Positions 6,006 to 25,101 of a stretch of DNA of 37,302 nucleotides are shown one piece after another. The notes beneath the pieces were generated by a model that saw only the letters and a list, made by a program, of their open reading frames with translations, was not told where the DNA came from and ran no database searches. Made by a program: the position numbers and the translations under genes. The first letter of the stretch is position 1. The number at the start of each line of letters is the position of its first letter. The stretch covers positions 1 through 37,302 of the forward strand of contig JAGCDE010000027.1 in the NCBI GenBank assembly GCA_017651315.1, written 5' to 3'. This stretch comes from Bacteroidaceae bacterium. Lineage in GTDB: Bacteria; Bacteroidota; Bacteroidia; Bacteroidales; Bacteroidaceae.

Positions 6006-6578
6006 TTAATTCTCGTAATCCTTACCCATGGACTTATATTTCATTAGAAAGATAATGTTTTTGGGGGCTTCATTACCAAAGGCACTCTCAAGAACGCTAA
6101 AAGATATTTCATTGCTATATAACACCAACGAACTGACCAGTTCCATTGCATCTTCATCATTAGCATCAAAAGAACGCTTCAACCACATGTATTCGGTTAT
6201 AGTCTGCTGACCAGCTCTATTTGTTTCAACGTACGTTTCAAAACCTTCAATACGAGTATCGAAAGGTGTTCCAATAAAACCTATTTCTTCATCATAGAAC
6301 TTAAGGGAATCACTCTTGAACACGCACCATCTGGCAGTATCAGCACTTCCTTCATAAAGTCCGTTTGTAGAGACAGCCACACCACCTTTCTTAAGAATCA
6401 GCAAGTCATCATTCCCACTCATTACACGTACAAACTTCTCGCCGCCGTCTAAAGACAGCCCCATCTCTTCCATTTGCCATTTGCCTTCAACTCTTTCCTC
6501 CATCACTTGATTTTGACTTTTGCATGAAGTCAACAAGAAGACGTACGATACCGTAATAATAAAACAAGACCATCTCAT
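6006..6578 (-). CDS. Lipoprotein of unknown function
   Basis: The 190-residue protein starts with a signal peptide and lipobox LTSC (about residue 19), followed by a KSQNQ tether. The segment KWQMEEMGLSLDGG, then several strand-like stretches (DDLLILKKGGVAV, WCVFKSDSLKFYDEE), resembles the lipocalin-like small lipoproteins of Bacteroidota that open with a GKW motif. That is a weak structural impression, not an assignment. ATG at 6578 is preferred over an upstream TTG because it places the signal peptide at the N-terminus. It lies 63 nt downstream of the SH3/TonB gene on the same strand and could belong to that transcript. Confidence 0.6.
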   Translation of the reverse strand: MRWSCFIITVSYVFLLTSCKSQNQVMEERVEGKWQMEEMGLSLDGGEKFVRVMSGNDDLLILKKGGVAVSTNGLYEGSADTARWCVFKSDSLKFYDEEIGFIGTPFDTRIEGFETYVETNRAGQQTITEYMWLKRSFDANDEDAMELVSSLVLYSNEISFSVLESAFGNEAPKNIIFLMKYKSMGKDYEN

Positions 6579-6641: not shown

Positions 6642-7934
6642 TCAGTCCAGTTTGAAATTAACAGGTATAGAATATTTTACCCTGACGGGCTTCCCTTTTT
6701 GTACTCCAGCTTTCCACTTGGGCATAAGTTTTACAACTCTGAGAGCTTCCTTGTCCAATATAGGATTAACAGATTGAGCTATTTCCACATCACTTATAAA
6801 TCCATCCTTTTCTACGACAAAAGAAACAATTACCCTACCTTCTATTCTATTCTCTCGGGCCATTGCTGGATATTTGATATTATTACTGAGGAATTTCGAC
6901 AATTCAGATGTTCCTCCTGGAAATTCTGGCATTTTCTCCGCAACCGTAAGGACATTTTCTTGCTCTTCATCTTCTTCTATTATCTCTATATCATGAATAT
7001 GTATTTCCTTTTTCTTAAAAATGGATTCAAAGGTTCCAATGTGTCCTTCAAGGACATCAGAATGAACCACATCCCTCATCTCCTCTGGGAGCAAGCTGAC
7101 ATCCAACACATGCCAATCAACATCTCCCTCTATACCATAGTATATTTTTGTTTGTTCAATACGCCCTTTTGAATTCATTATGAGGTCAAGAGTCTTTGTA
7201 TTTTCTGTCAACTTGTCCAAGCTCAAATATGGTCCGGTGAAACCGCCAAAATCATTGTCATAGACACGAGTCAACAGGTTATTCCCGAATTCGACAAGAG
7301 TATAGAACTCATTGATCTCATGTATCGTGGTTTCATCACTTTCCCGATTAATTCCATATATATAGCTGTTAGCGAAAGCATACATACCATTCACATAGCG
7401 ACCTAAACAAAGATATTCTTCATCTTCACCATTCGATGATGTAGCCAGACATAAACCAGCGTATTTGCCATCAAACACTCTGGCAACATCAAACACTCTG
7501 TTGGGTGCTGACAACTCAAGCGTTCTCGTTTTAACCTCTTCACAGAACTTCTTCATAATATACGCCTCTGCATAATCCCACACGACATTCCCACTCTCCC
7601 ATACATAAAGCACATGATACCAGTCTCCACTCTCACCAATAATTGGGAGAATATGAGCTCTTGCCGGTATATCATCTTCTATTAGAGCATTTGTAAAGCA
7701 TAAATAACGTCTCATACTTTCATTACTTGTACTGATAACAAGTCTCGGACTTGAAGCATCTGGTTTTTGGCGCAGATTCACGTTATCAACTATTACTTTA
7801 ACGAACCGGCATCTGGGGATTGTAACATCAAACGGCCATTGAGCACTACTTGATGTTGTCATTCCCTGCAGAATGATTATTAACAAGAAGCTTATCATCC
7901 AAAAAAATCTTCTCCTTGGAATGGCTTTAATCAT
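6642..7934 (-). CDS. Secreted SH3 / TonB C-terminal domain protein
   Basis: The 430-residue protein begins with basic residues and a hydrophobic stretch ending near SSAQ (about residue 31), either a signal peptide or an N-terminal anchor. Residues about 43-140 look like a bacterial SH3 domain (VNLRQKPDASSPRLV, then GDWYHVLYVW). The last 95 residues are a TonB C-terminal domain: MPEFPGGTSELSKFLSNNIK, YPAMARENRIEGRVIVSFVV, then the final strands to VNFKLD. TonB domains normally contact TonB boxes of outer-membrane transporters, but in Bacteroidota this fold is also fused to unrelated sensor or envelope proteins. The middle 180 residues are unknown. There is no Pro-rich periplasmic spacer as in true TonB, so an energy-transducing role is doubtful. 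Confidence 0.75.
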   Translation of the reverse strand: MIKAIPRRRFFWMISFLLIIILQGMTTSSSAQWPFDVTIPRCRFVKVIVDNVNLRQKPDASSPRLVISTSNESMRRYLCFTNALIEDDIPARAHILPIIGESGDWYHVLYVWESGNVVWDYAEAYIMKKFCEEVKTRTLELSAPNRVFDVARVFDGKYAGLCLATSSNGEDEEYLCLGRYVNGMYAFANSYIYGINRESDETTIHEINEFYTLVEFGNNLLTRVYDNDFGGFTGPYLSLDKLTENTKTLDLIMNSKGRIEQTKIYYGIEGDVDWHVLDVSLLPEEMRDVVHSDVLEGHIGTFESIFKKKEIHIHDIEIIEEDEEQENVLTVAEKMPEFPGGTSELSKFLSNNIKYPAMARENRIEGRVIVSFVVEKDGFISDVEIAQSVNPILDKEALRVVKLMPKWKAGVQKGKPVRVKYSIPVNFKLD

Positions 7935-22409: not shown

Positions 22410-23483
22410 ATGGGACCTGATTTCCGGACATACAAGCTTCTTAAGCCGGTCAGTCGGATCTGGGCAGCCGTCAGCTCTGTCCGGAACCGCCTATTTGACA
22501 AAGGAATCCTCAGGTCAGAGACATTCCGTCTGCCTGTGATATCGGTAGGCAACATTACCGTAGGCGGAACCGGCAAATCACCCCACACTGCATATATAGC
22601 TTCACTGCTGGCCCGCAGCGGCCGGACAGCCATCCTGAGCAGAGGCTATGGCCGTCAGACCAAAGGGTTCCGCATGGTCTCACCATCTGACACATACCGC
22701 TCTGTAGGGGATGAGCCCCTGATGCTCTCCATTCTGCTTCCGGATGTATGCGTTGCAGTCGATGAGGACAGGGCCCACGGAATCAGGACCATTATTAATA
22801 AGGTGAATCCCAGGGTAATAGTTCTCGACGATGCCTTCCAGCACCGTAAAGTCACCCCTTCCCTCAACATCCTGCTCATCAACTATAACCGGAACATTCT
22901 CCTTGACTGTCCGATGCCGGCAGGAAGATTGCGGGAGAGCGCGTCCAACCGCGACAGGGCCGACATAATGGTTGTGACAAAGTGTCCGCAGGGAATCGGT
23001 CTGTCCGAAATGGAGAGCATATCAGCGGAACTTGTTACAGCCAGGCAGCAGCGGGTATGGTTCTCCACGATGGAATACGGTCCTCTATACAGGCTCAGCG
23101 ACCACACCGTATATTCGCCCGACATCTCCACCCCTATACTCGCCGTGACAGGAATCGCATCACCCGATGCGATGGTCGCCCACCTGAAGGACACCTTCCG
23201 CGAAGTGGCCCTGATATCATACCCGGACCATCACCGCTTCACAAGCAGGAATCTGCTGAAAATCGGCAGGACACTTGACGCCATAGGGTCAGGAGCCATT
23301 ATCGTCACCACAGAGAAGGATGCGTCAAGGTTCCTGAGTGCCGATATGCCCCCCGGGCTTATCGGCAGGATATTTGTACTACCCATTGCCGTCAGGTTCC
23401 TTAAAGACGGCGACCTGTTTGATAGCTTAATTACAGAACATGTTGAATCATTCGAAAAAAATAACAGTCATGACTGCACCTGA
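22410..23483 (+). CDS. lpxK: Tetraacyldisaccharide 4'-kinase
   Basis: The 357-residue inner-membrane-associated kinase phosphorylates the 4' position of the lipid A disaccharide precursor. The nucleotide site is VGNITVGGTGKSPHTAYIAS (about 47-66), followed by the family motifs ILSRGYGRQTKGF and VGDEPLML. VAVDEDRAHGI and VIVLDDAFQHR come next, the last containing the DDxxQH signature. YPDHHRFT and TTEKDASRF near the C-terminus also match. ATG 22410 is used: a TTG start at 22398 would lie within a possible -7 box (TAAATTTG, 22393-22400), which leaves an almost leaderless mRNA. The 3' end overlaps thiL. Confidence 0.95.
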   Translation: MGPDFRTYKLLKPVSRIWAAVSSVRNRLFDKGILRSETFRLPVISVGNITVGGTGKSPHTAYIASLLARSGRTAILSRGYGRQTKGFRMVSPSDTYRSVGDEPLMLSILLPDVCVAVDEDRAHGIRTIINKVNPRVIVLDDAFQHRKVTPSLNILLINYNRNILLDCPMPAGRLRESASNRDRADIMVVTKCPQGIGLSEMESISAELVTARQQRVWFSTMEYGPLYRLSDHTVYSPDISTPILAVTGIASPDAMVAHLKDTFREVALISYPDHHRFTSRNLLKIGRTLDAIGSGAIIVTTEKDASRFLSADMPPGLIGRIFVLPIAVRFLKDGDLFDSLITEHVESFEKNNSHDCT

Positions 23484-24525
23484 AAAGACCGCTATCTCAT
23501 CATTGGGCGAATTCCGGCTGATAGACCATCTGACAAAAGAGATCAGACTGCAGAACAGCTCCACCTTATACGGAGTGGGGGATGACTGCGCAGTGCTGGA
23601 CTACTCGGACCCTGACAAGGAGGTCCTGGTAACTACCGACATGCTGATGGAGGGAGTCCATTTCGACCTGACATACGTACCTCTGAAACATCTTGGATAT
23701 AAAAGTGCCATGGTCAATATCTCAGATATATACGCCATGAACGGGACCCCACGCCAGATGACGGTATCCATAGCCTTGAGCAAACGTTTCTATGTAGAGG
23801 ACCTGGAGGATTTCTACGCCGGGATCCTGCTGGCATGCCAGCGTCACGGAGTGGATCTGGTGGGAGGAGACACCACCTCGTCCCTGACCGGACTGGCCAT
23901 AAGCATCACCTGCATAGGTGAGGCAGAGAGGGGAAAAGCAGTATATCGCAACGGAGCCGGGCAGAATGACCTGATTTGCGTATCGGGCAATCTGGGCGCC
24001 GCCTACATGGGCCTGCAGCTGCTGGAGCGTGAGAAAGCCGTTTTCAACAGCACCCCGCATGACGCCAATGAGCCTTTCAGCCCTGACTTTGCGGGAAAGG
24101 AATACCTGCTGGAGCGCCAGCTCAAGCCTGAGGCACGCGGTGATATAATCAGGGAACTCCGTGAGGCCGGTATCCGGCCCACCGCAATGATGGACATATC
24201 CGACGGACTCTCATCAGAGCTCATCCACATATGCAAGCAGAGCGGCACCGGCTGCAGCGTCTATCAGGAGCGCATCCCGATAGATTACCAGACCGCCGTT
24301 ATGGCCGAGGAGTTCAACATGGATGTCTATACCTGCGCCCTGAACGGAGGAGAGGACTACGAGTTACTTTTCACCGTTCCCCTGACTGACCACGACAAGA
24401 TAATCCAGCTAAAGGATGTAAAGCTAATAGGTCACATGACAAAGCCCGAATCAGGAAGACATCTGATCACAAAGTCCGGCCAAGAAATAGAACTCAAGGC
24501 TCAGGGCTGGGCCTCCAATCTTTGA
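23470..24525 (+). CDS. thiL: Thiamine-monophosphate kinase
   Basis: The 351-residue enzyme makes thiamine diphosphate from thiamine monophosphate and ATP. It belongs to the PurM-like fold. Seen: GEFRLIDHLT, GVGDDCAVLDY (metal-binding Asp pair, about 37-47), TTDMLMEGVHFDL, VNISDIYAMNGTPR, DLVGGDTTSS, MMDISDGLSSEL and NGGEDYELLFTVP. All match ThiL signature blocks in order. ATG 23470 overlaps the lpxK end by 14 nt; an in-frame ATG at 23440 would add ten residues that look like a shadow of the lpxK tail. No thiamine-pyrophosphate riboswitch was seen before it. Confidence 0.95.
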   Translation: MTAPEKTAISSLGEFRLIDHLTKEIRLQNSSTLYGVGDDCAVLDYSDPDKEVLVTTDMLMEGVHFDLTYVPLKHLGYKSAMVNISDIYAMNGTPRQMTVSIALSKRFYVEDLEDFYAGILLACQRHGVDLVGGDTTSSLTGLAISITCIGEAERGKAVYRNGAGQNDLICVSGNLGAAYMGLQLLEREKAVFNSTPHDANEPFSPDFAGKEYLLERQLKPEARGDIIRELREAGIRPTAMMDISDGLSSELIHICKQSGTGCSVYQERIPIDYQTAVMAEEFNMDVYTCALNGGEDYELLFTVPLTDHDKIIQLKDVKLIGHMTKPESGRHLITKSGQEIELKAQGWASNL

Positions 24526-24542
24526 AAAGATTCTAAGCGAAC

Positions 24543-24805
24543 GGAACTAAAGGGTAATACCCTCTGGAAACCATGGCCGCCCGTGGGCTTGTGAACCGAC
24601 GAACGAAGAGAGAGTAGAGGAAGCTGGCTTACTCTACCGAACGAGGAGGAGGTCAAGAGTGTTGCTCTTAACGGGAGGGACCCGTCACTAAGAAGACGCT
24701 CTGGAAGATGGGAGTCTACTCACGTCTTTCAGAGCGTCTTATTAGAGATGGGAGGGATAGCGCCGCAAGGCGCGTAGTTTCCAGAGGATATTACCCTTTA
24801 GTTCC
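24543..24805. ncRNA. Large inverted-repeat-closed structured element
   Basis: A 29-nt arm (24543-24571, starting GGAACTAAAGGG) pairs with 24777-24805, with one C-A mismatch only. Inside are several independent hairpins: GTAGAG/CTCTAC with an inner AAGC/GCTT (24614-24637), AAGAG/CTCTT (24655-24669), ACGGG/CCCGT (24671-24685), an 11-bp stem AAGACGCTCTG/CAGAGCGTCTT enclosing a further hairpin (24693-24740), and GCGCC-GCAA-GGCGC with a GNRA loop (24760-24773). Together they give a multibranched fold of about 263 nt. The element fills the gap between the thiL stop and the stop of the PII-like gene, where only a terminator would be expected. It is not RNase P, tmRNA, SRP RNA or a self-splicing intron as far as I can tell. 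Either strand could be the transcript. Confidence 0.65.
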
Positions 24806-24807
24806 CT

Positions 24808-25101
24808 TTAAATACTTTTCTCTACATTCCAGACAAAGGCGCGCAGACCAAGTTTCTCGGTCGCTACGTCCATTGCGTGCAGTTTGTCAAGAACGATATC
24901 CACCTTGCCGTCATCAACCATGGTGATGATACCGGAGCACATCGAGGGCCAGGCGTGATTGCCGTAGTGGGGCTCACCCTTGACCGAACCCCTGCCCTGC
25001 AGCTGCTCCACCATGGAGAAGCCGCGGCAGTTGTTGGTTGTGAGCAAGTCAATTATACGCTCGGTATATGACTGGTCGAATGCTATAAATATTGCTTTCA
25101 T
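24808..25101 (-). CDS. PII-like, transporter-associated protein (PG0541-like)
   Basis: The 97-residue protein starts MKAIFIAFDQSYTERIIDLL and has the small alternating strand-helix layout of PII-like (ferredoxin-fold) proteins, with a Gly-rich loop GRGSVKGEPHYGNHAWPS at about 37-54. Proteins of this type sit at the end of RND efflux operons in Bacteroidota; from memory this is the PG0541 family. PII-like proteins trimerise and bind nucleotides or metals in a loop that regulates a membrane transporter, so a regulatory role on the RND pump is plausible but unproven. It starts 12 nt after the pump gene. Its stop is three bases from the structured element. Confidence 0.75.
   Translation of the reverse strand: MKAIFIAFDQSYTERIIDLLTTNNCRGFSMVEQLQGRGSVKGEPHYGNHAWPSMCSGIITMVDDGKVDIVLDKLHAMDVATEKLGLRAFVWNVEKSI

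Follow-up and report, generated by a model that had tools for sequence, protein, structure and literature searches.

The stretch of DNA that we analysed (hereafter the window; 37,302 nt of a contig from a Bacteroidaceae bacterium) carries, between two convergent genes, one copy of a family of structured elements that are very probably both mobile and pseudoknotted, as judged from sequence comparison. Copies are dispersed, differ in presence from genome to genome and share one architecture, and spacers between convergent genes contain more than their share of them. At the few loci compared, the outer arms repeat the end of the neighbouring gene in inverted form, and the core is found in either orientation within one spacer. 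The window copy itself is probably a non-autonomous mobile element, the folded strand of which would be recognised by a putative enzyme supplied in trans. It is this enzyme that we infer, and for that reason the complete reading is held less firmly than mobility and the pseudoknot.

Architecture of the element and its pseudoknot

The upstream gene (23440..24525, + strand), which we take to be thiL after the first-pass annotation (a name given from sequence alone), is an ORF that matches the Pfam AIRS N-terminal domain with 101.9 bits and ends at the element. The P-II assignment of the downstream, convergent ORF (24808..25101, − strand) is weak (Pfam P-II, 22.7 bits, below the cut-off of 25). 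The first-pass annotation had described a 29-nt closing stem with one mismatch, a GNRA tetraloop in one hairpin and strong structure throughout 263 bp, and all three hold: the inverted arms (24543–24571 and 24777–24805) are 97% identical with a single mismatch, a GCAA loop tops the hairpin at 24760–24773, and the 263 nt fold to −132.5 kcal/mol on the + strand (z-score −10.9) and to −129.7 kcal/mol on the − strand (z-score −12.8), 0 out of 200 shuffles being equally stable for either. On the 3' side the arm stops 2 bases short of the P-II-like ORF, and on the 5' side 17 bases separate the thiL stop codon (24523–24525) from the arm. These bases belong to the element as its leader, so the element is better drawn from about 24524 to 24805.

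Read on the + strand, the window copy starts with the leader GAAAAGATTCTAAGCGAAC (24524..24542), which together with the preceding T makes the thiL stop codon TGA. It is followed by the 5' arm of the closing stem P1 (24543..24571; locus-specific in sequence) and by hairpin P2 (24575..24588; GGCC-GCCCGT-GGGC), a covarying helix with the first pseudoknot strand, CCCGT, in its loop (24580..24584). An optional module of about 74 nt (24597..24670, approximate boundaries), inserted at the TGAAC of the core, then interrupts the core ahead of the second pseudoknot strand, ACGGG (24671..24675), which pairs with the P2 loop and is followed by AGGGA. The covarying hairpin P4 (24681..24752) has the base CCCGU...AUGGG with a G.U wobble and a long optional tip (other copies have a minimal P4), and is flanked on both sides by GGGAGGG (GGGAGGGA 5' of P4). 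Hairpin P5 (24760..24773; GCGCC-GCAA-GGCGC, then GUAG), which covaries within the genus, and the 3' arm of P1 (24777..24805), complementary to the 5' arm, complete the element.

The same order (P1 arm; P2 of 4 bp with a GCCCGU-type loop; NNGGG; AGGG; P4; AGGGAU; often P5 and GUAG; 3' arm) is found in the window copy, in minimal copies and in distant copies, with an H-type pseudoknot between CCCNN of the P2 loop and the downstream NNGGG. P1 arms of other copies differ in sequence and are still self-complementary, P5 is missing or replaced in several distant copies, and P2 of the window subfamily has one internal mismatch, at a pair that is unpaired in 34 out of 90 aligned rows. The internal hairpins of the first-pass annotation are thus part of a real fold; overlooked was the pseudoknot (24580–24584 with 24671–24675), which the single-sequence fold of the window copy does not recover, and two of the hairpin-bearing stretches (24597–24670 and the long tip of 24681–24752) turn out to be optional modules that are missing in other copies. 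The 5' leader precedes the arm in many copies: an exact 10-nt leader motif, defined post hoc, lies upstream in 31 out of 79 non-redundant copies (absent from the other 48), on the other side in two out of 79, and in 0 out of 86 shuffles. Strict leader matches in the collected loci number 20 (duplicate loci counted), all with the core motif at most 230 nt downstream.

Orthologous copies differ in the optional module: L105 lacks it and L080 has it (flanks 95–99% identical), as do L222 and L101 (94–95%), and L129 and L065 versus L013 (92–94%). It is a dispersed repeat in its own right: the module of the window copy (GAACCGACGAACGAAG...GAGGAGGAGG; 24597–24670) also stands alone, with no core, in six further genera of this family (L031, L183–L187). 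Either the module targets the TGAAC of the core, or segments are exchanged between copies by conversion.

Compensatory changes were counted in three alignments: A1 (29 of 37 minimal-core regular-expression matches, eight with module remains being excluded), A2 (24 hand-picked copies: 19 of the 23 non-window model matches and five from A1, leaving out two near-duplicates in L259, the copy at L257 6687, which pairs poorly on its 3' side, and L270) and A3 (every model match, 94 in total, from 79 selected loci, with L257 6687 and L270 included; 90 distinct rows). Paired cells make up 92.8% in A1, 91.4% in A2 and 94.6% in A3, and two-sided changes are seen at 18 out of 36, 27 out of 36 and 27 out of 31 pairs, respectively (601 two-sided cells in A3, which was fitted to the covariance model and hence leans to the structure of that model). 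These counts are of sequences rather than events, and related copies repeat one another. All five covariation measures exceeded all 500 shuffles in each alignment; the compensatory stem changes that the first reading proposed to test for are present.

The pseudoknot was excluded from the covariance model by which the copies were found. All five of its pairs are formed in 83 of the 90 distinct copies, with double changes at two pairs (29 and 26) and the first three pairs nearly invariant; the combinations include CCCGU/ACGGG, CCCAU/AUGGG, CCCUC/GAGGG and CCCGC/GCGGG, and CCCAC/GUGGG in a related subfamily. Taken alone on A3, it has 98.0% of cells paired and 56 two-sided cells, and 0 out of 500 shuffles matched either figure or its covariation score; the number of double-change pairs (66 out of 500 shuffles) and of pair types (334 out of 500) were not exceptional. 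Paired sequence varies nearly everywhere except at the CCC/GGG of the pseudoknot and at the P4 base, and unpaired core residues are conserved across families of the order.

No known Rfam family accounts for this structure. The window has 0 Rfam matches at the gathering threshold, in line with the earlier view that no classical RNA fits, and at lax E-values the element has only sub-threshold matches to microRNA, roX1 and snoRNA models, on the P4 hairpin; we regard these as unrelated hairpin families and reject a known Rfam RNA. Matches in L029 and L032 were likewise sub-threshold (IRE and c-di-GMP-I models in L032, outside the element). A plain intrinsic terminator is rejected too: a simple scan found no terminator-like and no promoter-like site at the window element, and the conserved architecture far exceeds what termination requires, as the first reading had remarked of the structure.

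Dispersal across genomes and insertion at gene ends

A DNA similarity search matched 24 out of 101 genomes, 23 of them in the genus (including the own genome of the window, G000); the lone match in another genus (G044), like those in G121, G145, G159, G164 and G167 of the family sample, covers the optional module only. The exact core pattern was found in 113 stretches of GTDB genome contigs (L040–L152), all from genomes titled Bacteroidales, Bacteroidaceae or Prevotellaceae. Covariance model R1, built from 29 minimal copies, matched 33 out of 37 genus genomes (0–34 matches apiece, nine in G000; no match in G014, G024, G025 and G032) and 25 genomes, in two of 30 genera, in a family sample of 349. 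With a broader model from 24 diverse copies (R2), five of 393 genomes of the order were matched: G000, plus a single genome from each of four further families (3–9 matches). In the phylum (395 genomes), R2 matched G000 and, weakly, one other genome (E-value 0.006); searches of more than 40 genomes used stricter filters, by which weak matches may be lost. G000 has 10 copies: nine found by the model, and that of the window, whose score is held down to 26 bits by the module.

The 89 copies compared fall into 54 flank clusters, 34 of them with a single copy, so the element recurs at many unrelated loci across Bacteroidales. The window element had no match in phages or plasmids, and viral contigs had 0 exact pattern matches; a phage or plasmid origin is rejected. 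Titles and opening lines of abstracts, among the literature matches listed, do not appear to describe the element, which is apparently a family of Bacteroidales undescribed before.

Metagenome-assembled contigs often start or stop within the element (L040, L084, L098, L104, L117, L139 and L150; contigs C5, C6, C9 and C11 of G011; C50 of G016), which implies that it breaks assemblies and that copy numbers are likely underestimates. On contig 51 of G000 (L259), three similar copies (1951–2060, 2321–2430 and 6078–6187; two direct, one inverted) lie within 4.3 kb, around two oxidoreductase genes with TPP-enzyme and POR domains. Four loci on separate contigs of G088 (L285, L290, L294 and L298) share downstream sequence as far as a GAGAGTGAC hairpin, which suggests a longer repeated unit in that genome.

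Of 30 P-II-like loci collected, 26 could be parsed, the own genome among them. In eight (G002, G006, G007, G009, G012, G018, G027 and G036) the stop codons of the thiL and P-II-like genes overlap and there is no spacer, which indicates that the window copy is an insertion. The thiL stop codon is the TGA from the element leader in G000 and TAA at three empty sites (L156, L165 and L173); any duplication at the insertion is at most three bases (CTT), and flanks at other loci are remodelled. G011 and G023 have at this spacer the related subfamily with the CCCAC/GUGGG pseudoknot, G015 and G021 a further related form in the opposite orientation, and G030, G022, G016 and G005 an unrelated AATTGAAAATTGA-type palindrome. 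The element is missing at two other sites as well (L126 and L082); a seemingly empty site at L020 was not counted, being a deletion derivative that retains the leader and part of an arm. Among the options raised in the first-pass annotation, that of a dispersed mobile RNA element is the one supported by the unrelated loci, the empty sites, the compensatory changes and the want of an Rfam match.

The thiL/P-II-like spacer (L153–L182) looks like a hot spot, as relatives have several unrelated palindromic insertions there, or none. In relatives (L158, L169 and L171), the AcrB-type gene and the P-II-like gene are separated by a further palindromic insert, which has GCCAACGCC-type or GCCAACAGCC-type repeats. 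A second repeat of structured look within a palindrome, sharing the motif ...GATCCCGTTAA...GCCGTTTAGGGTC..., was seen at L112 (6530–6744) and L039 (2481–2836; no credible Rfam match in this locus), and is apparently unrelated to the window element; L082 is an empty site for it (GACCAATATATTGGTC), by comparison with which AATATATT appears to have been duplicated.

Candidate enzymes and competing explanations

No autonomous copy was found. None of the loci searched for one has the core halves far apart around a long internal ORF, in a search that was not exhaustive. Pfam was searched with 10 ORFs from around copies that lie in pairs or clusters (G031, G035 and G000): six have domains (Panacea, ParE, ParD, Lcl_C below the cut-off, TPP-enzyme and pyruvate:ferredoxin oxidoreductase) and four have none, and the tested ORFs between paired copies include no reverse transcriptase and no transposase. 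The only two matches of G031 are inverted copies on either side of a 242-codon ORF without Pfam match (L257, 5766–6491), which is followed by a Panacea-domain ORF (6777–7775).

REPINs and REPs with their RAYT (TnpA-REP) are among the most similar known systems, and the element may be a DNA unit of the REPIN kind, which a REP-associated Y1 (HUH) transposase would recognise as folded single-stranded DNA (ssDNA) and move, an explanation we consider unlikely. Both are small intergenic palindromic non-autonomous repeats with a predicted ssDNA/RNA fold and a short 5' motif; the strand bias described below would suit recognition of one ssDNA strand, and one TnpA-REP group needs a conserved motif ahead of a bulged palindrome, according to the abstract of PMC8266576. 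REP-like GGGACGGTTC (at most two mismatches) lies within ~110 nt of 30 out of 89 copies, 17 of which have it on both sides; the other 59 have none nearby, and none was seen around the window copy. REPs may have inserted next to the element, or they may represent one of its routes of spread. The enzyme family (Y1_Tnp) is encoded in 23 of the 37 genus genomes, including the high-copy G005, G022 and G023, but was not detected in G000 (83% complete), in the high-copy G007, G020 and G027, or in six carriers outside the genus (G483, G534, G564 and G088, 96–99% complete; G226, 89%; G386, 86%). Described REPINs, according to the abstract of PMC3116915, are REP doublets that form hairpins, whereas the element, with GGGACGGTTC on both sides in a minority of copies, has a conserved pseudoknot core of ~60–80 nt; its arms are not conserved, and the GUAG after P5 (GTAG in the DNA) is absent from distant copies.

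The genus probably has a RAYT/REP system of its own: REP-like GGGGACGGTTC sequences occur in 12 out of 30 Y1-transposase loci (L190, L191, L196, L198–L200, L202, L203, L207, L213, L215 and L216), in most cases forming inverted pairs that lie close to the two gene ends. Their presence is a further point on the side of a REPIN-like unit.

That the element is an RNA structure at gene 3' ends kept for the host, whether terminator, mRNA stabiliser or small RNA, is decidedly unlikely, although this would explain both the conservation of the core fold across families and the strong preference for convergent gene ends. Of 100 copies, 46 are bordered by gene ends on both sides and eight by gene starts; tandem gene pairs hold 17 in each orientation, and 12 copies have no ORF called on one side (in some module-bearing copies the 3' end was placed too early in this count). 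Using mechanical calls of ORFs of at least 100 codons in L040–L152, we found convergent genes around 26 of the 47 spacers that hold an element and around 46 of the 258 other spacers of 20–600 nt (odds ratio 5.7, p = 2.5e-7). Against a role for the host, the same spacer is empty in relatives, matches range from 0 to 34 per genome, the two orientations are equal in tandem gene pairs, and the window copy shows no site of terminator or promoter type. Of the stable ncRNA first proposed, it is the host-serving version that fits this presence/absence pattern and the absent orientation preference less well.

Group I and II introns, IStrons, retrons and omega RNAs are multi-helix RNAs with a pseudoknot and dispersed copies. 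The element resembles them in these respects, and with its RNA-like fold and + strand wobble bias it could be a SINE-like, retron-like or intron-derived retroelement, copied via RNA by a reverse transcriptase; we think this very unlikely. Reverse transcriptases (RVT_1) are found in seven of the 37 genus genomes, two of which have many copies (G022 with 28, G021 with 15), but neither in G000 nor in the high-copy G005, G023, G007, G020 and G027, and in 0 out of the six distant carriers. Unlike those RNAs, the element has no Rfam match, intron and retron models included, its copies sit between genes, and the ORFs checked between paired copies include neither of these enzymes nor a transposase. 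Carriers without Y1_Tnp or RVT_1 imply that copies can persist in a genome that has neither class; movement could have preceded the loss of an enzyme.

Arm turnover, strand bias and significance

One orthologous spacer is empty in L126 and filled in L148 and L049, where the left gene ends with an inverted copy of the end of the right gene (GAGCAGAAGTAA), replacing the end seen in relatives; in L136 the core lies in the opposite orientation to that of L148. L266 has a comparable inverted copy beyond a stop codon, and in G015 and G021 the neighbouring gene end is copied likewise at the thiL locus. The view of the element as a dyad-type unit with the 29-bp arms as its ends has to be given up: the arms vary in sequence and length from copy to copy and, at the sites compared, duplicate flanking genes, and what is conserved is the inner core and the short 5' leader. 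Homogenisation of arms and inversion of the spacer are effects of template switching between inverted repeats, according to the abstract of PMC8604942. Since template switching homogenises arms, their complementarity alone is weak evidence for RNA function, and it is the pseudoknot, P4 and the conservation of unpaired residues on which the case rests. Pure DNA palindrome dynamics, in which template switching makes and repairs the stems of a functionless fold, would explain the copied gene ends and the flipped core, but it is highly improbable given that unpaired residues of the core are conserved between families of the order, that the crossing pseudoknot helix occurs with several pair combinations, and that P4 and P5 covary.

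The strand was left open by the first-pass annotation and can be answered in outline. In the arms of the 89 copies, read on the + strand, there are 77 G.U against 14 A.C mismatches (22 against nine outside the shared inner arm), or 37 against 13 after collapsing identical contexts (p = 0.0009). For the whole structure the counts are 50 against five in A1 and 52 against 18 in A2, with 29 and 18 of the G.U cells, respectively, at one and the same P4 pair; among its 89 cells in A3, 75 are G.U, 13 A.U and one G.C. The bias is suggestive of folding of the window + strand, as RNA or as ssDNA. It is no proof, since template switching can also account for asymmetric base-pair frequencies in stems, according to the abstract of PMC8794818.

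Under our preferred reading of a non-autonomous element mobilised in trans, the + strand, as RNA or ssDNA, would fold to the pseudoknotted core, and core and leader would be recognised by the enzyme, which would copy or move the element. Template switching in replication after insertion would then extend the arms and maintain their complementarity. The insert would be tolerated as it lies past the stop codons, can supply its own TGA and forms a hairpin where the transcript would end anyway. Against this reading are the failure of the searches to find an autonomous copy or an enzyme, the 48 copies that lack the exact leader motif, the near-invariance of three pseudoknot pairs and its two unexceptional measures, the better z-score of the minus strand (pseudoknots ignored) and the fact that arm complementarity is obtainable by template switching without RNA function.

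The element is also comparable to ERIC- and RU-type repeats and bacterial MITEs, in being ~100–260 nt long, dispersed and intergenic, with inverted-repeat ends and no coding capacity seen. It differs from them in having no fixed terminal inverted repeats (conserved ends shared with an autonomous insertion sequence define a classical MITE, and here the arms differ between copies), in that no parent insertion sequence was found, and in its RNA-type covariation, pseudoknot included, across families of an order. We tentatively raise the possibility, which we put below an even chance, of a new class of selfish elements: what makes them mobile would be a pseudoknotted fold of RNA or ssDNA and not the sequence of their ends, the enzyme that moves them would belong neither to the Y1 transposases nor to the reverse transcriptases, and template switching from adjacent genes would rewrite their arms at every site.

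The family adds a strongly covarying structured element, apparently undescribed, to an order whose members abound in gut and rumen. Its orthologous sites are available in empty, filled, flipped and module-swapped states, which makes two questions testable: what moves small structured repeats with no transposase or reverse transcriptase in sight, and what share of compensatory changes, the usual proof of RNA function, is due to DNA template switching rather than to selection. For the second question, arms and pseudoknot within one element offer a natural contrast.
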